From assembly GCA_026122225.1 (NCBI GenBank), contig JANEZZ010002239.1, positions 496,001-560,000 on the forward strand: 64,000 nucleotides of DNA, given 5' to 3'. The notes under the pieces are model-generated. The model saw only the letters and a program-made list of their open reading frames with translations. It did not search any database and was not told the origin of the DNA. Shown here piece after piece: positions 1 through 52,559 of the stretch. A program made the translations under genes and the position numbers. The first letter of the stretch is position 1. Every line of letters starts with the position of its first letter. The DNA comes from Heloderma charlesbogerti. Its lineage: Eukaryota > Chordata > Lepidosauria > Squamata > Helodermatidae.

Positions 1-480
1 GGCTCTGCTGGGCTTTGGGCTTCAGTTGTGGGAGGAAGAGGACTCTGACATTGCAAAGGGCCTGGCTCTGTAGTGCCCACCTCTCCCAGCTCCACAAACA
101 CCTCTGGCCTGGGTACAGTGGCTTTTCAACAATGCTGGTGTAACCCTCCTCTGTGTGGCACCCCAGAATGAGTTTACACCTATAAAAAAGAAGCAGGATG
201 ATTTTAGGTCCACTTGAAAAGAACTGGGATGACACCCTCTGACCCTTCTTCAAGCACGGAGTTTACTACGTGAAACAACAGACCTGGCTGAGCTGACCAG
301 TTCACTTTTTTTTTTAAAGGTACCCTGTGAAATTGCTATTAAAGATAAAGAGGACCTCAGCATTCAATACACATACACAATGCAGCCCAGCCAATAAACC
401 ATCTCTCATTTGACAATCTGAAGTCCAATATCCTACTGTAATAAGGCCTAATTGCTGGGTAGGAGTGTCCCTCTGTTTCA
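1..480. other. Unassigned AT/GC-mixed sequence
   Basis: I see no gene, structured repeat or recognisable transposon here. A short T-run lies near 307-315. Frames are short and composition-driven. Confidence 0.4.
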
Positions 481-612
481 GCCTCCCCCAACCTGGTGTC
501 GCCTTGATATTTGGACTTTGAGTCCCATAAGCACCAGGGAGCTTGACCAATGGGCAGGAATGCCGGAAGTTGTAGTCCAAAACGTATGGAGGGCACCAGG
601 TTGGGTGAGTGC
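481..612. mobile_element. Short foldback MITE (hAT-like, CAACCTGGTG ends)
   Basis: The left part reads CCCCCAACCTGGTG and the right part reads GGGCACCAGGTTGGG, so the ends are inverted repeats. The inside holds the GGAAGTTGTAGTCC phrase typical of a very common squamate MITE that carries complementary halves of 'actacaactcccatcatc' type. Related partial copies lie at 22985-23078, 33682-33776 and 54500-54566. It encodes no protein. The hAT assignment comes from family resemblance; I see no clear target duplication. Confidence 0.55.
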
Positions 613-739
613 TAATGTGCACCAAATTTGCATGTGCCATTGATGCTGCTACATGTAAGATCATGCTTTTAGCATTTGGAACAAAATGAAAGAGTCAATA
701 GTTGTAAAGCAGATTTTGTGGGATTCTTTTAAGTCCACT

Positions 740-800
740 GAAAGAGGACACTTGACTAGATGAACCCTTGATCTGAGCCAGCAGGGATCATCTTATGATC
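740..800 (+). mobile_element. CR1-type LINE 3' end fragment
   Basis: The phrase 'gactagatgaacccttgatctgagccagcagg' followed by a degenerate TTCTTATGTTCT-like tail is the recognisable 3' end of a CR1/L3-type LINE in sense orientation. It is about 60 bp and strongly 5'-truncated. Confidence 0.5.
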
Positions 801-19093: not shown

Positions 19094-22000
19094 TTCATGG
19101 ATCACTGCCTTGTTGTGGCGAAGGGGCTTGCGTAACTCAGTGAAGCCATAAGCTATGCCGTGCAGGGCCACCCAAGACGGACAGGTCATGGCGGAGAGTT
19201 CTGACAAAATGTGGTCCACTGGAGAAGGAAATGGCAACCCACTCCAGTATTCTTGCCAAGAAAACCCCATGGAACGTATCACAAGGCTAAAAGATATGAC
19301 GCCGGAAGATGAGCCCCTCAGGTCGGAAGGTGTCCAATATGCTACTGGGGAAGAGCAGAGGGAATTTCCAAGTAGCGCCAGAAAGAGTGAAGCGGCTGGG
19401 CCAAACCCAAAAGGACACTCAGCTGTGGATGTGTCTGGTGGTGAAAAGAAAATCCGATGCTGTAAAGAACAATATTGTTTAGGAACCTGGAATGTCAGAT
19501 CAATGAATCAAGGTAAGCTGGAGGTGGTCAAACATGAGATGGCAAGATTGAACATCGACATCTTGGGAATCAGCGAACTAAAATGGACAGGCATGGGCGA
19601 ATTTAATTCAGGTGACCATCATATCTACTATTGTGGGCAAGAATCCCTTAGAAGAAATGGAGTAGCACTCATAGTCAACAAAAGGGTGGGAAAAGCAGTA
19701 CTGGGGTACAATCTTAAAAATGATAGAATGATCTCAGTACGAATCCAAGGCAAACCATTCAACATCACAGTAATTCAAGTCTATGCCCCAACCACTGAGG
19801 CCGAAGAAGCTGAGGTTGATCGGTTCTATGAAGACCTACAACACCTTCTAGAACTAACACCAAAAAAAGATGTCCTCTTCATCATAGGGGATTGGAATGC
19901 TAAAGTAGGAAGTCAAGAAATCACCGGGATAACAGGCAGGCATGGCCTTGGTGTACAAAATGAAGCAGGACAAAAGCTAATCGAGTTTTGCCAAGAGAAC
20001 ATGCTGATCATAGCAAACACTCTTTTCCAACAGCACAAGAGGCGACTCTACACATGGACATCACCAGATGGTCAATATCGAAATCAGATGGATTATGTCC
20101 TTTGCAGCCAAAGATGGAGAAGCTCCATACAGTCAGTAAAAACAAGACCTGGAGCTGACTGTGGCTCAGATCATGAGCTGCTTCTTGCCAAATTTCGGCT
20201 TAAATTGAAGAATGTCGGGAAAACCACTAAACCGTTCAGGTATGACCTAAATCATATCCCTGATGAATATACAGTGGAGGTGAGGAATAGATTTCAGGGA
20301 TTAGACCTGATAGACAGAGTGCCTGAGGAACTATGGACGGAGGTCCGTAACATTGTTCAGGAGGCAGCAACTCAATCCATCCCAAAGAAAAAGAAATGCA
20401 AGAAAGCAAAGTGGCTGTCTGATGAGGCTTTACAAGTAGCTGACGAAAGAAGGAAAGCGAAAAGCAAGGGAGAAAGGGGAAGATATACCCAACTGAATGC
20501 AGAGTTCCAGAGAATAGCAAGGAGAGACAAGAAGGCCTTCTTAAATGAACAATGCAAAGAAATCGAGGAAAACAACAGAATGGGAAAGACTAGAGATCTT
20601 TTCAAGAAAATTGGAGATCTCAAGGGAACGTTTTGTGCAAAGACGGGCATGATAAAGGACAAAGAAGGCAGGGACCTAACAGAAGCAGATGAGATTAAGA
20701 AGAGGTGGCAAGAATACACAGAAGAACTATACAGGAAAGATCTGAATGTCCCTGATAGCCATGATAGTGCGGTCACTGAACTTGAGCCGGACATCCTCGA
20801 GAGTGAAGTCAAGTGGGCCTTAGGAAGCATTAGTAACAACAAAGCTAGCGGAGATGACAGTATTCCAGCCGAGCTATTTAAAATCCTAAAAGATGATGCT
20901 GTTAAAGTGCTGCATTCAATATGTCAACAAATCTGGAACACTCAACAGTGGCCACAAGACTGGAAAAGGTCAGTTTACATTCCAATTCCAAAGAAGGGCA
21001 ACGCCAAAGAGTGTTCAAACTACCGCACAATTGCGCTCATTTCACATGCCAGCAAGGTGATGCTCAAAATCCTACAAGCTAGGCTTCAGCAGTATGCGAA
21101 CCGAGAACTACCGGAAGTACAAGCTGGGTTTCGAAGAGGCAGAGGAACTAGAGATCAAATCGCCAACATTCGCTGCATCATGGAGAAAGCAAGAGAATTC
21201 CAGAAAAACGTCTATTTCTGCTTCATTGACTACGCTAAAGCCTTTGATTGTGTGGATCACAACAAACTGTGGCAAATTCTGAAAGTGATGGGAGTACCAG
21301 ACCACCTTACCTGTCTCCTGAGAAACCTGTACGAGGGTCAAGAAGCAACAGTAAGAACCAGACATGGAACAACCGATTGGTTCAAAATTGGGAAAGGAGT
21401 ACGACAAGGCTGCATATTGTCACCCTGCTTATTTAACTTATATGCAGAATACATCATGAGAAATGCCGGGTTGGATGAATCAGAGGTCGGAATTAAGATT
21501 GCTGGGAGAATTATCAACAACCTCCGATATGCAGACGATACCACCCTAATGGCAGAAAGCGAAGAGGATCTCAAGAGTCTCTTGTTGAGGGTGAAAGAGG
21601 AGAGTGCAAAAGCTGGTTTGAAACTCAACATTAAAAAAACGAAGATCATGGCATCTGGCCCCATCACTTCCTGGCATATAGAAGGGGAAGAAATGGAAGC
21701 AGTGACAGATTTTACTTTCTTGGGCTCCAAGATCACCGCAGACGGTGACCGTAGCCATGAAATTAAAAGACGCTTGCTCCTTGGGAGGAAAGCTATGGCC
21801 AACCTAGACAGCATAGTAAGAAGCAGAGACATCACCTTGCCGACAAAGGTCCGTCTAATCAAAGCTATGGTTTTCCCAGTAGTAATGTATGGCTGTGAGA
21901 GCTGGACTATAAGGAAGGCTGAGCGCCGAAGAATTGATGCTTTCGAACTGTGGTGCTGGAGAAGACTCTTACGAGTCCCCTGGACTGCAAGGAGGTCCAA

Positions 22001-22306
22001 TCAGTCCATCCTAAAGGAAATCAACCCTGACTGCTCATTGGAAGGACAGATGATGAAGCTGAAGCTCCAATATTTTGGCCACCTAATGCGAAGAGAAAAC
22101 TCCCTGGAAAAAACCCTGATGCTGGGAAAGACTGAAGGCAAAAGGAGAAGGGGACGGCAGAGGATGAGATGGCTAGATAGCATCACGGATGCAATGAATA
22201 TGAACTTGAGCACGCTCCGGGAGAGAGCGCAGGACAGGAAGGCCTGGCGTGCTCTGGTCCATGGGGTCACGAAGAGTCGGACACGACTGAACGACTGAAC
22301 AACAAA
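19094..22306 (+). mobile_element. BovB (RTE) LINE, full-length and intact
   Basis: 3213 bp, from TTCATGGATCACTGCC to CTGAACGACTGAACAACAAA, about the full length of BovB. The start coincides with that of the copy at 1611. The bases AAAT lie on both sides (19090-19093 and 22307-22310), consistent with a short target duplication inside the SINE, although AT-richness makes four bases weak evidence alone. It has a short 5' leader of about 60 bp, one uninterrupted ORF and almost no 3' UTR, the usual RTE plan. BovB is well known for patchy, horizontally transferred distribution between squamates and ruminants. Confidence 0.96.
19155..22298 (+). CDS. BovB ORF2: AP-endonuclease/reverse transcriptase, intact
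   Basis: 1047 codons without a stop. Residues 1-105 are a low-conservation leader. The apurinic-type endonuclease spans about 108-350: TWNVRS (111-116), ISELKW with catalytic Glu141, VYAP (209-212), GDWNAKVG (245-252) and GSDHELL with Asp339-His340. The endonuclease nicks target DNA to prime reverse transcription. A basic linker follows (410-480, KKKKCKK). The reverse transcriptase spans about 605-860: IPIPKKGN, NYRTIALIS, AGFRRGRGTRDQ, FIDYAKAFDCVDH (Asp692), GVRQGCILSPCLFNLY and YADD (792-795). The C-terminal part carries ELWCWRRLLRVPWTARRSN and RMRWLDSI. All catalytic motifs seen are intact. I use the first ATG; initiation at a later Met (for example residue 12 or 19) is possible. Whether it is expressed cannot be judged from sequence. 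Confidence 0.95.
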   Translation: MPCRATQDGQVMAESSDKMWSTGEGNGNPLQYSCQENPMERITRLKDMTPEDEPLRSEGVQYATGEEQREFPSSARKSEAAGPNPKGHSAVDVSGGEKKIRCCKEQYCLGTWNVRSMNQGKLEVVKHEMARLNIDILGISELKWTGMGEFNSGDHHIYYCGQESLRRNGVALIVNKRVGKAVLGYNLKNDRMISVRIQGKPFNITVIQVYAPTTEAEEAEVDRFYEDLQHLLELTPKKDVLFIIGDWNAKVGSQEITGITGRHGLGVQNEAGQKLIEFCQENMLIIANTLFQQHKRRLYTWTSPDGQYRNQMDYVLCSQRWRSSIQSVKTRPGADCGSDHELLLAKFRLKLKNVGKTTKPFRYDLNHIPDEYTVEVRNRFQGLDLIDRVPEELWTEVRNIVQEAATQSIPKKKKCKKAKWLSDEALQVADERRKAKSKGERGRYTQLNAEFQRIARRDKKAFLNEQCKEIEENNRMGKTRDLFKKIGDLKGTFCAKTGMIKDKEGRDLTEADEIKKRWQEYTEELYRKDLNVPDSHDSAVTELEPDILESEVKWALGSISNNKASGDDSIPAELFKILKDDAVKVLHSICQQIWNTQQWPQDWKRSVYIPIPKKGNAKECSNYRTIALISHASKVMLKILQARLQQYANRELPEVQAGFRRGRGTRDQIANIRCIMEKAREFQKNVYFCFIDYAKAFDCVDHNKLWQILKVMGVPDHLTCLLRNLYEGQEATVRTRHGTTDWFKIGKGVRQGCILSPCLFNLYAEYIMRNAGLDESEVGIKIAGRIINNLRYADDTTLMAESEEDLKSLLLRVKEESAKAGLKLNIKKTKIMASGPITSWHIEGEEMEAVTDFTFLGSKITADGDRSHEIKRRLLLGRKAMANLDSIVRSRDITLPTKVRLIKAMVFPVVMYGCESWTIRKAERRRIDAFELWCWRRLLRVPWTARRSNQSILKEINPDCSLEGQMMKLKLQYFGHLMRRENSLEKTLMLGKTEGKRRRGRQRMRWLDSITDAMNMNLSTLRERAQDRKAWRALVHGVTKSRTRLND

Positions 22307-24607: not shown

Positions 24608-25286
24608 TAGGGGTGTATGAATTACTTACCCTGTTCCGGGGCATCTGCGGGGGGGGAGGCAATCTGTTCCTCCCCCTGGAATCCTCCCTGGCCGGCTCCG
24701 CTCCGTGGCAAGTCCATGGAGCCGCCGGCCGGGCCTGCCCGCAGCTGGACTTCTATCTGCTGTCGGGCTGTGGCCACAAATGGAGTCCACCATAGAGGCC
24801 ACCGTTTGCGTTCCTGCATTAGCTGTGACAGCTACGTATATATTTATGTAGCCTATCATGGCAAAAGGCAGCGACGTAAATGGCATAGTGGCCGCCATTT
24901 GTGTCCCTGCTTTTTGCCATGATGGGTTAAGTAAATACTTACGTAGCCTATCATGGCTAACGCAGGGACACAAATGGCGGCCACAGACTGGGGCAGACAT
25001 TTGCGGCCGCAGACTGGGGCCAGCAAATGGACCGGATGGCCAACACCAGGTAGGGTCTGTCCCAGGACAATTTCACGGGGTGGCGGGGGGATTGCTCCAT
25101 TCCGCCACGGACTCCGGGGAGCCGGATTCTTTAGAATCCAGCCCCCTGGAGTCCGTGGTGGAATGGAGCAATCCCCCCCGCCACCCTGTGAAATTGTCCT
25201 GGGACGGACCCTACCTGGTGTTGGCTGTCCGGTTCTTTAGAATTCGGCCTCACTGGAGTCCATGGCGGAATTCTCTAACATCCCTA
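24608..25286 (-). mobile_element. Foldback hAT-like element, copy 1 (E1)
   Basis: 679 bp, ends TAGGGGTGT and ACATCCCTA, flanked by an exact 8-bp duplication GCCATTAT (24600-24607 and 25287-25294). It contains two AT-centred hairpins (about 24826-24866 and 24921-24960) and CpG-rich ATGGC...GCCAT hairpins between them. The right third (25032-25232) is an extra ~92-bp inverted duplication of the terminal hairpin. Outward donor-like motifs occur at 24624-24632 (reverse) and 25047-25055 (forward). No protein. Orientation is set by the end bearing the terminal hairpin. Confidence 0.88.
25032..25232. repeat. ~92-bp-arm inverted repeat inside E1
   Basis: Left arm from CCGGATGGCCAACACC and right arm ending GGTGTTGGCTGTCCGG, nearly perfect complements around the self-complementary centre GGATTCTTTAGAATCC (about 25123-25139). 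It repeats the element's own end in mirror order. Confidence 0.9.
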
Positions 25287-29153: not shown

Positions 29154-29964
29154 TAGGGATGGCAGAGAATTCCACCATGGATCTCGGTGAGGCCGAATGC
29201 CAGTGCATTCGGCCTCCCGAAATCTGTGGCAGAACGGCCTGTCACACCCCCCCCCCGCCACCTCGCGGATCCCCCCCAGGACGAGACTTACCTGGGGCGG
29301 ATCTTCTGGGTGGCGGCGGCGGCTCCGGTGGCGGTGACTGCGGTGGCTGGTCTTCCGACCGGCTGCCACCGCCGCCATCTGCAGGTGTTTTTTTTTTTGT
29401 TTTTTTACCCATACGTGATAGGCTACGTAAGTTTTTATGTAGCCTAAAACAACTGGGTAAAAAAAAAAAAAGGCATACGCAAATGGCGGCGCCCATGGGT
29501 GCCGCCATTTGAGTTCCTTATTTTGGGCCATCTTAATCTACATAAATATTTACATAGACTAAGATGGCGAAAATAAGGGGAACGCAAATAGCGTCTGCTA
29601 CGCTATTTGCGTTCCCCTTATTTTCGCCGTCTTAGTCTATGTAAATATTTACGTAGATTAAGATGGCAAAACTAAGGAACGCAAATGGTGGCGGCCGTAG
29701 CCGCCACCATTTGCGTACGTGGTTTTGTTTTTTTCCCCAGAGCCCTCCGCGGCCGGAAATGCGGCTGCGGACAGCTCTGGCCTGGCTGGGCCTGGCCAGC
29801 TGCTCCGTGGAGCTGCCGCGGAGTACAGCCAGCCATGGAGGATTCCGGGGGGGAGGAATGGAGTGCCTCCCCCCCCGTCGAGGATTCCGGGGGGAGGGAC
29901 GGAACGCCTACCCCCCCACCATCAACATAATCCGCGAAAGGTAAGTGACTTTCGTACATCCCTA
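29154..29964 (+). mobile_element. Foldback hAT-like element, copy 2 (E2)
   Basis: 811 bp, ends TAGGGATGGC and GTACATCCCTA, flanked by exact TCCCCAAC (29146-29153 and 29965-29972). Order: terminal hairpin with loop GAATGCCAGTGCATTC (29171-29245), GC-rich GGCGGCGGCGG tract, three AT-centred hairpins (about 29408-29452, 29528-29568, 29625-29668) separated by CpG-rich hairpins, a second GC tract with repeated GGATTCCGGGGGGAGG phrases, then the right end. Outward donor-like motifs: 29286-29294 (reverse) and 29938-29946 (forward). No protein is encoded; long frames here are shadows of the GC-rich repeats. Confidence 0.93.
29568..29626. repeat. Perfect 27-bp-arm palindrome at E2 centre
   Basis: Arms 29568-29594 and 29600-29626 are exact complements around a 5-base loop (CTGCT). 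Complementarity continues outward with a few mismatches to about 29490 and 29705, taking in the flanking hairpins. Confidence 0.95.
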
Positions 29965-40076: not shown

Positions 40077-40715
40077 TAGGGATGTCAGAGAATTTCTCCA
40101 CGAATCTCGGGGAGGCCGAATGCCAATGCATTCAGCCCCCCGAAATTGGTGGGGAAATTCTCCGACCCCCCCCCGACTCCCCCCCGGATGGGACTTACCT
40201 CTGTCGAATGTCCCTCTCAGCGGAGGGTCCCGGTGGCAGTTCGGCAGCGTTGCGGCGGCAGCAGCGGCCAGTCTTCTGACCGACTGCCTCCACCACCATT
40301 TCCCAGTAAAAAAAAAAAAAACGTGATAGGCTACGTAACGATTTACGTAGCCTACCACGGCTAGATTTTCAAAGTCAGCCGTGATAGGCTACGTAAAGAT
40401 TTACGTAGCCTATCATGGCTGACTTTGAAAATCTAGCCGTGATAGGCTACGTAAATCTTTACGTAGCCTATCACGTTTTTTTTTGTTGTTTTTTTACAAT
40501 TTACTTTTTTATTTTGTGGCCGGGGAGACAGGGCGCTCCCCCCCAGCCAGAATTTCAGCGGGGAGGGATGGGGCGCCTCCCCCCCCGGCCTGAATTTCAG
40601 CCAGGAGGGGCGGGGCGCCTCCCCCCACCAAGAATTTAGGGGGGAGAAACGGAGCGCCTCCCCCCCGCACCGAAAACAGCTGCGGGACCAGGTAAGGGAC
40701 TTTCGTCCATCCTTA
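40077..40715 (+). mobile_element. Foldback hAT-like element, copy 5 (E5)
   Basis: 639 bp, begins TAGGGATGTCAGAG, ends GTCCATCCTTA. Target duplication not readable (AGACTTTG versus CTTTCAGG). The core (40321-40475) is three AT-centred hairpins separated by CTAGATTTTCAAAGTCAGC and its complement, so the central hairpin is the axis of a larger palindrome. CpG-rich ATGGCGGC modules are absent. The right part has four GC-rich repeats of the type CAGAATTTCAG(C)...GGGAGGG. Outward donor-like motifs: 40193-40201 (reverse) and 40689-40697 (forward). Confidence 0.85.
40321..40475. repeat. Three-hairpin nested palindrome in E5
   Basis: Each unit reads CGTGATAGGCTACGTAA...TTTACGTAGCCTATCACG. Spacers at about 40362-40378 and 40426-40438 are complementary to one another. 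Confidence 0.95.
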
Positions 40716-43137: not shown

Positions 43138-43545
43138 CCTGCAAGGCTCACAGGGACATAGGAAGGTGCCTTATACTGACCTGGTTCAAGTGATCAAAAT
43201 AAGCCACAGTGGGCTGTTGTAGCGTTATTTGAGGGTTGTTTCCCCTCCAACAAGCTGTGCCACCTGGTTCAGATGACATGACACGAGGTGATTATGGAGA
43301 TTGTGTCCCTCATGCACTGAGCATCCACCATGATTTAAATAAGCCATGGTGGCTTATTTTGATTGTGCAAACTGGCCCACTGAGTCAGACCATTGGTCCA
43401 TCTAGCCCAGTATTGTCAACAGAGACTGGCAAAAGCTCTCCAGGTTTTTCAGACAGGGATCTTTTCCAGCCCTACCTGGATATGCTGGGGATCAAACCTA
43501 GGACCTTCTGCGTGCAAAGCAGCTGCTCTACCACTGAGCCACGAT
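43138..43545 (-). mobile_element. tRNA-derived SINE split by a MITE
   Basis: The 3' end of the SINE (GGACATAGGAAGGTGCCTTATACTGA, 43153-43179) and its body and head (GTCAGACCATTGGTCC to the A box near 43530) are separated by 199 bp of unrelated DNA (43180-43378). Across the gap, ACTGA is repeated. The tRNA-like head is on the minus strand. Confidence 0.85.
43180..43378. mobile_element. MITE with ~28-bp terminal inverted repeats inside SINE
   Basis: Left TTCAAGTGATCAAAATAAGC and right GCTTATTTTGATTGTGCAAA are imperfect complements. ACTGA occurs at 43175-43179 and 43379-43383. A further internal palindrome surrounds 43340-43356. No protein. The superfamily is uncertain. Confidence 0.8.
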
Positions 43546-43549
43546 CCTC

Positions 43550-50723: not shown

Positions 50724-51192
50724 TACTGATCCATAAGAGGACCTATACTCTTATTCCATGACTGCTGAGTTTGCTCAGGAGTCTTTGGTGAGGGACTTTG
50801 TCAAAGGCCATTTGGAAGTCCAAGCAAACAATGTCTACTGGATCACCCTTGTCTACATGCCTATTGAGACTCTCAAAGAACTCCAAAAGGTTAGCGAGAC
50901 AGTGCTTACCTTTGTGGAAGCTGTGTTGATTGATTTTTCAGCAGAGCTTGTCCTTCTATAGACTTACTAATTTTATCTTTAAGAATGCTTTCAACCAATT
51001 TACACGGAACAGACATTAAGCTAACTGGCTGTAACTTCCCAGATACCCCCTGGATCCCTTTTTAAAAATTGGTGTGGCATTGGCCATCTTCCAGTCCTCT
51101 GGTACAGAGGCGGATCTTAGGGACATGTTGCATATTTTGGTTAGAAGATCAGCAATTTCATATTTGAGTTCTTTGAGAACTCTAGGATGGAT

Positions 51193-52192
51193 TAGGTATG
51201 TACGAAAGTGACTTACCTGTTCGCAGATTCTGTTCGCGGTGGGGAGGAGCGCTCCGTCCCTCCCCCCGGAATCCTCGATGGAAGAGGAGGTGATCCGGTC
51301 CTCCACCCCGGAACCCTGCCCAGCTGGCTCTACTCCGCAGCGGCTCCGCGGAGCAGCCGGCCAGGGCCGTCTGCAGCTGGACTTCCGGCCGCAGACGGGC
51401 TGCTGCAGACGCAAATGGCGGCTGCTGTAGCGGCTGCCATTTGCATCCTTTCAGGCTGCCGTGATAGGCTACATAAGTATTTACGTAGCCCATCATGGCA
51501 TGCCCCCCCCCAAAATGGTGTATGCAAATGGCGGCGGCTATGGCAGCCGCCATTTGCATTTCCTATTTTTCGTCATTCTAGCCTATGTAAATATTTACGT
51601 AGGCAATTACGGCAACAAAAAAAAGGGGGGGGGAACCGCAAATAGCATAGTGGGCGCTATTTGCGTTTCTTTCTTTTTTCGCCGTAAAAGCCTACGTAAA
51701 TATTTACGTAGGATAAAACAGCGAGAAAAAAAAAGAATGCAAATAGCACCCACTACGCTATTTGCAGTTCCCTTTTTTTTCGTCGTAATTGCCTACGTAA
51801 ATATTTATGTAGGCTAGAACGGCGAAAAATAGGGAACGCAAATGATGGCCGCCGTAGCCGCCGCCATTTGCGTGCGCTGGTTGTTGTTTTTTTATTTGTT
51901 GGCTTGCCGTGATAGGCTACGTAAGTCTTATGTAAGACTTACGTAGCCTATCACGGCAAAGACCAGAGTGCAAATGGCGGCCGCAGCAGCTGGTCAAAAG
52001 ACCAGCCGCCGCCGCTGCTGCTGGTGCCACTGGAGCCGCTGCCGCCATCCAGAACATCCACCCCAGGTAAGCCTCGTCCCAGGGGGAATCCGCGGGGGGG
52101 GGGGTAGGCCATTCCGCCATGGATTTCGGGGGGCCGAATGCCAGTGCATTCGGCCTCACTGAAATCCATGGCGGAATTCTCCGCCATCCCTA
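51193..52192 (-). mobile_element. Foldback hAT-like element, copy 6 (E6), largest
   Basis: 1000 bp, ends TAGGTATGTACG and GCCATCCCTA, flanked by exact GGATGGAT (51185-51192 and 52193-52200) inside a CR1. Five AT-centred hairpins: 51458-51500, 51571-51613, 51680-51723, 51781-51824, 51906-51957. Four complete CpG-rich or ATAGC-type hairpins lie between them. Hairpins 2 and 4 are inverted copies of each other around hairpin 3, and hairpins 1 and 5 are also paired. The terminal hairpin with loop GAATGCCAGTGCATTC is at 52105-52178. Outward donor-like motifs: 51211-51219 (reverse) and 52064-52072 (forward). No protein. Confidence 0.94.
51906..51957. repeat. Perfect 25-bp-arm palindrome in E6
   Basis: Arms of 25 bp are exact complements with a 2-base centre (TG). 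Outer part GCCGTGATAGGCTACGTAAG. Confidence 0.97.
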
Positions 52193-52559
52193 GGATGGAT
52201 ACCATTTGGGCCTGGTGATTTATTTGCTTTCAGTTTATCAGTAAGGTTGAGAACTTCATCTTTTGTCACCACTGTTTGCCTCAGTTCCTCAGACTTCTTT
52301 CCTGAAAACATCCATTCAGGCACAGGTATCTGTCCTATATCTTCTGCACTGAAGACTGATGAGAAGAATTAATTCAGCTTCTCAGCAATCTCTTTGTCCT
52401 CCTTTAGTACTCCTTTAGCTCCATTGTCATCCAACAGTCAAGCTGCCTCCCTAGCTGGCTTCCTGCTTCTGATATATTTAAAACATATTTATTGCTGGCC
52501 TTGATATTGTTAGTGATATGCTCTTCAAAATGCTTTTTGGCAACAAATTTGGGGGGCTG

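Follow-up and report, generated by a model that had tools for sequence, protein, structure and literature searches.

Copies of the element in the window and structure of copy C6

The window, viz. the whole stretch of 64,000 bases that was analysed, contains a 1000 bp non-autonomous hAT element (copy C6; hereafter MITE). Blast searches with C6, together with profiles of its ends, identified C1-C5 and C7 as six further full copies; beyond these seven, no element ends were detected in the window at E below 0.1. Together the seven copies account for 5,020 of the 64,000 bases. Their coordinates and those of the features of C6 are listed in Table 1. The limits of C6 are exact, its first bases being TAGGTATG and its last bases CATCCCTA, and its short terminal inverted repeat consists of TAGGTATG and TAGGGATG, which are found in the same or nearly the same form in the other six copies. 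The short terminal inverted repeats of hAT elements have a consensus of the type (C/T)A..G. The 8-bp target site duplication (TSD) and a hAT transposase partner with similar ends, described below, uphold the hAT-like identity assigned to C6 in the initial annotation.

Table 1. Coordinates of the copies of the element and of the features of copy C6 (positions in the window)
Feature	Position	Strand	Remarks
Copy C1	24608..25286	+	TSD GCCATTAT 8/8; right-end hairpin enlarged by fold-back duplication ~25026-25239
Copy C2	29154..29964	-	TSD GTTGGGGA 8/8; mirror axis in A2, 66/68
Copy C3	32296..33167	+	TSD 7/8; mirror axes A3 (76/84), A5 (47/54)
Copy C4	37268..37804	-	TSD AAAATACC 8/8; two B hairpins
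Copy C5	40077..40715	-	TSD match 1/8; axis B2, 84/88; nearest to autonomous right end
Copy C6, non-autonomous hAT element, 1000 bp	51193..52192	+	TAGG...CCTA ends; 8-bp TSD; relatives in genome
Copy C7	62645..63126	-	TSD 4/8; one B hairpin
TSD GGATGGAT of C6, left copy	51185..51192	.	8/8 identical to 52193-52200
TSD GGATGGAT of C6, right copy	52193..52200	.	8/8 versus left copy
C6 left end	51193..51218	+	counterpart of autonomous hAT right end; AAGTGACTT at 51206-51214
CpG-rich hairpin A1	51408..51447	.	
AT-centred hairpin B1	51458..51499	.	17/21 paired
CpG-rich hairpin A2	51522..51559	.	arms 16/17
AT-centred hairpin B2	51572..51613	.	mirror partner of B4; self-paired 15/21
A-type hairpin A3, CpG-poorer	51633..51669	.	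core GCAAATAGC; mirror partner of A4
AT-centred hairpin B3	51681..51722	.	axis of large palindrome; 16/21 paired
A-type hairpin A4	51739..51765	.	core only
AT-centred hairpin B4	51782..51823	.	16/21 paired
CpG-rich hairpin A5	51831..51878	.	
AT-centred hairpin B5	51904..51959	.	27-bp perfect arms, 27/27 paired
CpG-rich hairpin A6	51977..52018	.	divergent
Right subterminal hairpin	52111..52177	.	17-bp perfect arms
Second-level palindrome	51424..51990	.	axis in B3; self match 232-798, minus strand, 73% over 598 columns

The interior of C6 is made up of two kinds of small hairpins which alternate along its length, viz. B hairpins (centres at 51478, 51592, 51701, 51802 and 51931) and A hairpins (centres at 51427, 51540, 51651, 51752, 51854 and 51997). 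This confirms the earlier description of five AT-centred hairpins alternating with CpG-rich ones, the count now being five B and six mostly CpG-rich A hairpins. A dyad scan found 5 strong dyads in C6 and none in each of 20 mononucleotide shuffles, and the predicted folding energy of the single DNA strand is -332.7 kcal/mol versus -169.3 (sd 5.5) in 20 dinucleotide shuffles, i.e. on the secondary-structure prediction that had been named as a check, C6 folds far better than its shuffled counterparts.

The small hairpins are also nested in a palindrome of a second level, the axis of which lies in B3, the best axis of those scanned. In an inverted alignment of the two halves of C6 about B3, 312 of the 399 aligned bases agree, with 20 gaps, and the score of 148 compares with 57 for the direct alignment and with at most 19.5 in 200 shuffles; the ungapped arms agree at 58/71 positions. 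The central claim of the initial annotation, that small palindromes sit inside one large palindrome, is thus borne out, and so is its statement that hairpins 2 and 4 are near complements of each other about hairpin 3 (B2 versus B4 with flanks: 93 inverted, 46.5 direct). For hairpins 1 and 5, for which the same was claimed, the relationship is weaker in C6 itself (46 inverted, 32 direct), although B1 and B5 do mirror each other in the 33-copy majority consensus. Among all pairings of the half-units obtained by cutting the array between neighbouring axes, that which mirrors them about B3 has rank 1/15, 1/105 and 2/945 for three, four and five half-unit pairs, respectively. Inverted repeats of the foldback type, which reach the termini, are absent in C6, its large arms being internal.

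The copies in the window vary in the number of their hairpins and, in some cases, in their mirror axis. B hairpins in C1 to C7 number 2, 3, 5, 2, 3, 5 and 1 (one overlapping match in C1 being left out). The inverted scores exceed the direct ones for B1-B2 of C2 (102.5 versus 59.5), B2-B3 of C3 (95.5 versus 63.5) and B1-B3 of C5 (90 versus 60). Half-unit orientation was counted in C1, C2, C3, C4 and C6, with C5 and C7 left out: in 32/34 cases the nearest half-unit runs the opposite way, inclusive of neighbours that share a small palindrome; with neighbours excluded this number is 18/34 versus 13.2 expected, and the pattern is clear only in C6 (8/10). The TSD matches at 8/8 positions in four of the seven copies and at 7/8 in one, C5 and C7 being without a clear TSD. 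All of the copies are GC-rich (0.51-0.63), with a CpG observed/expected ratio of 0.60-0.96 versus 0.28 for the window. Near the left end of the copies, GC-rich units of ~41 bp are seen in direct tandem at 29838-29917, 40527-40666 and 51237-51320 (the third by eye).

The right-end hairpin of C1 has been enlarged by a fold-back copy of ~105 bp, the arms of which agree at 42/46 positions without gaps and at 95/105 with gaps. A genome search with the right part of C1 gave 6,742 first-look candidates, a figure which should not be read as a copy number, and 40 of these were scored. Among these 40 places the whole 307-base query is matched only by C1; C585 covers bases 26-254 at 79%, and the remaining places reach to about base 185. 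The fold-back is, therefore, apparently private to C1. By eye, its return junction shows a common CCGG.

Relatives of the element in the genome

The assembly searched comprises 2,302,168,690 bases. The first-look candidates numbered 20,708 with C6 as the query and 12,397 with C2, totals which are not copy numbers; 40 were scored in each case, and all 40 places scored for C6 match. The search of the host genome, also named earlier as a check, has thus recovered many relatives and shows that C6 is not a one-off structure. Of 39 places besides C6 that were fetched, 33 were parsed by script (L118, L123 and L134-L137 being excluded), and these include L131, whose right end was falsely placed. The TSD is identical in register at 8/8 positions in 20 of the 33 parsed relatives and at 7/8 in six. 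Five B hairpins are present in 30/33, and L104, L106 and L107 show four at the same threshold. With C2 as the query, 12 of the 39 other places were fetched, and their TSDs match at 8/8 positions in six, 7/8 in three and 6/8 in one, with none in two.

A majority consensus, 968 bp long, was built from C6 and 32 relatives without L131, and the copies are 88.6-93.6% identical to it. Its arms about B3 extend from ~269 to 735 and include ~140 columns without any difference, the mismatches being found in the axis hairpin and in a spacer at ~305-325. The difference between axis and clean block has p 9e-6, based on counts read off the alignment with the ~305-325 spacer left out. Mismatches in the axis hairpin are the trace expected if the array had been copied by fold-back from an older hairpin. 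The consensus of 13 copies of the C2 subfamily has its arms about A2; by eye, these differ at about five of 145 columns and contain two gaps, with no mismatches at the A2 axis; because of this, the axis-mismatch sign of fold-back rests on one subfamily.

Arms compared within one copy show no greater similarity than arms compared across copies, both in the C6 type (0.868 within versus 0.865 between, 34/34 copies, p 0.13) and in the C2 type (0.882 versus 0.886, 13/13 copies, p 0.84). It follows that the large palindromes predate the spread of their subfamilies and that the inserted copies have undergone no measurable correction of their arms. Thus, the large palindromes are older than the amplification and have decayed since then in the single copies. 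Since the large C6 palindrome is common to the relatives, and its arms are near-perfect in the consensus, it is best read as the result of one founder event and not of many rounds about one axis. The initial annotation had proposed growth by repeated inverted duplication around the axis; inverted duplication about a hairpin axis is retained here, but in place of repeated rounds the consensus of the relatives is better fitted by one event. The small palindromes are present in the autonomous relative as well.

Some unusual forms were also observed among the places fetched. In L131 and L134, which are fold-back forms, the left end of the MITE is present at both termini and the TSD does not match, and in L135 a MITE array is apparently joined to an array of the autonomous type.

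An autonomous hAT transposon with similar ends

The probable partner of the MITE is a hAT transposon of 9.4 kb, whose transposase frame is 883 aa long. A genome search with PF05699 gave 871 candidates, and all 150 that were scored exceed the cut-off. The autonomous copy G000:C235:52196-61582 is 9,387 bp long, and its TSD is CACAACAC when a variant last base pair is included; the copy in C2152 has the TSD ATTTGTAT, and in both of these copies, the two that were checked at both ends, the TSD agrees at 8/8 positions. The 883-aa frame, read from one copy (L169), matches Dimer_Tnp_hAT (PF05699) at 61.5 bits (cut-off 21.4) and zf-BED at 20.2 bits, just below the cut-off of 20.6. Its residues 772-839 match four PDB sequences, two of which are named Hermes transposase and two only transposase. 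The best 5 of 25 protein relatives are from squamates (Sceloporus, Phrynocephalus and three geckos) and 37-41% identical, and PF02892 is annotated in 3/5 of these; such relatives suggest that the host, too, is a squamate.

The resemblance between the ends of the two elements is crosswise. The left ends of autonomous copies L170 and L171 begin with TAGGGATGTCAGAGAAATTC, which resembles the right end of the MITE read from outside, and the autonomous right end, read from outside, is TAGGGGTGGACGAAAGTCACTTACCT or a near variant, which resembles the MITE left end. Further, a tip, GC-rich repeats and A/B palindromes of the kind seen in the MITE are all present at the autonomous right end. Right ends were examined in 25 autonomous copies; 18 of them showed a tip and 12 an array that could be read. 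Inner B hairpins in these 12 number one in one copy, two in eight, three in two and four in one; they are arranged in direct tandem, and the GC-rich repeats number 1 to 3. The 3.2 kb that precede the array show 96-99% identity when L175 is set against four other copies. Of the window copies, C5 can be aligned to the right end of the autonomous element, with 76% identity in 353 columns. At the other end the likeness is short: the right tip of C5 matches the autonomous left end over only 22 bp, the other six window copies show no match to it at E 1e-3, and for the right ~130 bp of the MITE no counterpart was found in the autonomous copies compared. An occurrence of CATCCCTA ~335 bp past the transposase domain was considered as the autonomous right end and rejected, because most copies and alignments continue alike beyond it; the true end lies ~3.8 kb further.

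One MITE member of 559 bp (L172:4553-5111) lies inside a copy of the autonomous type with CATTCCAG on each side, and in L169 the CATTCCAG site is present once and is empty. This insertion and the empty site are together the outcome expected of cut-and-paste insertion. The TSD consensus is nnnTAnnn for Buster elements and nTnnnnAn for Ac elements. In 33 exact TSDs of the present family, T is found at position 4 in six and A at position 5 in nine, and T is found at position 2 in 10 and A at position 7 in 15, a pattern that does not resemble the Buster consensus and resembles that of Ac weakly.

Palindromes as candidate binding sites

Each end of the 9.4-kb copy carries two TTTACGNAG motifs, and the ~8.6 kb interior carries none; CGAAAGT occurs three times on the left, once on the right and not in the interior. 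The B palindromes are inverted pairs of TTTACGNAG. From this composition, and from the confinement of TTTACGNAG to the ends, we infer that the B palindromes may be dyad binding sites for the transposase, and more generally the A and B palindromes are candidate paired sites for its BED zinc finger. The case is weaker for A, because the A motif is not common to both ends (none on the left, two on the right and one in the interior of the 9.4-kb copy) and because AAGT/ACTT shows no clear enrichment at the element ends. The distribution of ATGGCG in the same copy is one on the left, none on the right and three in the interior.

The BED domains of Hermes are reported to bind cooperatively to two subterminal repeats that form a quasi-palindrome, and a quasi-palindromic AAGT pair lies just inside the Hermes left end, the corresponding sequence in Tol2 being AAGTACTT (PMC10368747). 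In the family described here, AAGTNRCTT is found near the tip in 3/7 window copies and 7/33 relatives of C6, and at bp 14-22 in 16/18 autonomous right tips (by eye). Motifs resembling a splice donor (AGGTAAG), pointing outward, were also seen by eye near both ends of C6 (51211-51218 and 52065-52071) and in similar form near the ends of most other window copies. An outward splice donor (ACTTACCT) had been considered as a promoter-trap feature and was dropped in favour of the AAGTNRCTT quasi-palindrome.

In an alignment of nineteen B hairpins, 84.5% of the cells are paired versus 81.1% in shuffles (reached in 0/500), and 14 cells are changed on both sides versus 8.1 (7/500 shuffles reach 14). 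However, neither the number of pairs with changes on both sides (5 versus 5.4) nor that of pair types (17 versus 17.8) is above the shuffles. One pair is changed on both sides in 7/19 sequences and unpaired in none. Changes on both sides fit selection for symmetry as well as renewal by template switching.

Origin and spread of the palindromes

The reading that we favour, and consider reasonably probable, is that a hAT transposase acts in trans to move the MITE and that the palindromes of the MITE are putative dyad sites, which were multiplied by fold-back and later decayed. According to this proposal, a non-autonomous hAT element would be mobilised in trans by a transposase coded elsewhere in the genome, its palindromes serving as paired sites for the transposase BED zinc finger. 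During replication, or in the repair of the gap left by excision, a new strand could snap back on an existing hairpin, copy the array in mirror image and then resume on its template at a further hairpin of that type. The element enlarged in this way would transpose as a unit and found a subfamily, and after insertion its palindromes would decay. Template switching has been described as a process that both generates and repairs hairpins (PMC8794818), and for Galileo an explanation by template switching during gap repair has been put forward (PMC4168063). A bolder version, which we regard as rather unlikely, is that the hairpins are self-multiplying sites that would both recruit transposase and prime their own mirror duplication in post-excision gap repair, so that a ratchet of nested palindromes results. 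If true, transposition would feed the growth of the array, and the longer an array, the more transposase it would attract and the better it would compete.

The nested palindrome could in principle be a by-product of tandem duplication, since palindromic units arranged head to tail are mirror-symmetric about every centre. It is true that the inner hairpins of the autonomous copies are repeated in direct orientation and that their arrays differ by direct tandem units, that B1-B2 and B2-B3 of C5 score slightly better direct than inverted (82 versus 73 and 72), and that non-adjacent half-units in several copies show no excess of mirror partners. However, tandem duplication alone, when tested, was disfavoured by the excess of inverted over direct scores, exemplified by B2 and B4 of C6, and by the rank of the B3 mirror pairing (1/105); in addition, the consensus arms agree inverted over ~140 bp, and C2, C3 and C5 carry long inverted arms about other axes, so that we hold this explanation to be very improbable. 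Equally improbable in our estimate is that the arms have been kept alike by ongoing gene conversion within each inserted copy, as in sex-chromosome palindromes. The arms of C2 pair at 66/68 positions though the half-units of C2 differ more from those of C3, and the B-hairpin pair noted above, changed on both sides in 7/19 sequences and never unpaired, points in the same direction; continuing conversion in inserted copies is nonetheless disfavoured by the comparison of arms within and between copies, which shows no significant difference in either subfamily. Gene conversion could have acted on the source copies before their amplification.

A more serious rival, though to our mind still doubtful, is that the palindromes are useless to the transposon, and that they persist as hairpins switch template readily while the size of the array drifts. 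The number of hairpins does vary, from 1 to 5 B hairpins in the window copies and from 1 to 4 inner ones in the autonomous copies; C7 was inserted with a single B hairpin; template switching has been described as a maker and mender of hairpins (PMC8794818); and the pairs changed on both sides and the pair types in the B alignment do not exceed the shuffles. Against this stand the absence of TTTACGNAG from all but the ends of the autonomous copy and, in the same nineteen B hairpins, the higher proportion of paired cells and of cells changed on both sides. Multiplication by fold-back of putative transposase sites is, in our assessment, the more probable account.

Relationship to known systems

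Like other hAT MITEs, the present elements have an 8-bp TSD, short similar tips and many copies, no coding domain was found in them, and the transposase lies elsewhere. They are unlike them in that their interior is an array in which as many as eleven palindromes alternate, a second-level palindrome being superimposed. To our knowledge, no hAT MITE with such a plan of palindrome arrays has been described. A search confined to part of the literature named no family with such an array, and five sequence stretches from the family do not occur in the literature text searched.

The likeness to the ends of Hermes and Tol2 lies in the AAGT-type quasi-palindrome near the tip (PMC10368747), which corresponds to AAGTNRCTT in the autonomous right tips, whereas the palindromes described here, as candidate binding sites, are 40-60 bp long, lie in the last few hundred bp and are variable in number. 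Galileo and the Drosophila foldback elements are similar in that large inverted repeats grow by tandem repeats and by the uptake of inner sequence (PMC4168063). The Galileo inverted repeats are terminal, whereas the large palindrome is internal here; relatives L131 and L134, however, have the left end at each terminus. In template-switch mutations, nearby sequence is likewise copied as its reverse complement in one event (PMC8794818); in the present case, however, the arms are ~230 bp long, the axes differ among copies and the product was amplified by transposition.

The two subfamily consensuses, with near-perfect arms about different axes, form a natural series for the growth of palindromes, which also includes the fold-back of C1 and the autonomous array that varies among nearly identical copies. 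They offer one system in which to test the origin and growth of palindromes in animal genomes, and also why the ends of transposons gather repeated subterminal sites.

Other observations on the window

Of 20 reading frames submitted to Pfam, three have a match, all to reverse transcriptase; no Pfam domains were found in the 14 frames without reverse transcriptase in or near the elements. An exact 24-mer scan against viral contigs gave no matches, and 90 matches in a 14-mer scan against them are taken as chance. The window also contains a near-intact LINE with a 1048-aa frame that has endonuclease and reverse transcriptase domains (19152-22298, + strand). A tRNA-like Rfam match of 42.6 bits, not called by ARAGORN, is present at 43477-43547 (- strand) and is perhaps the head of a tRNA-derived SINE.
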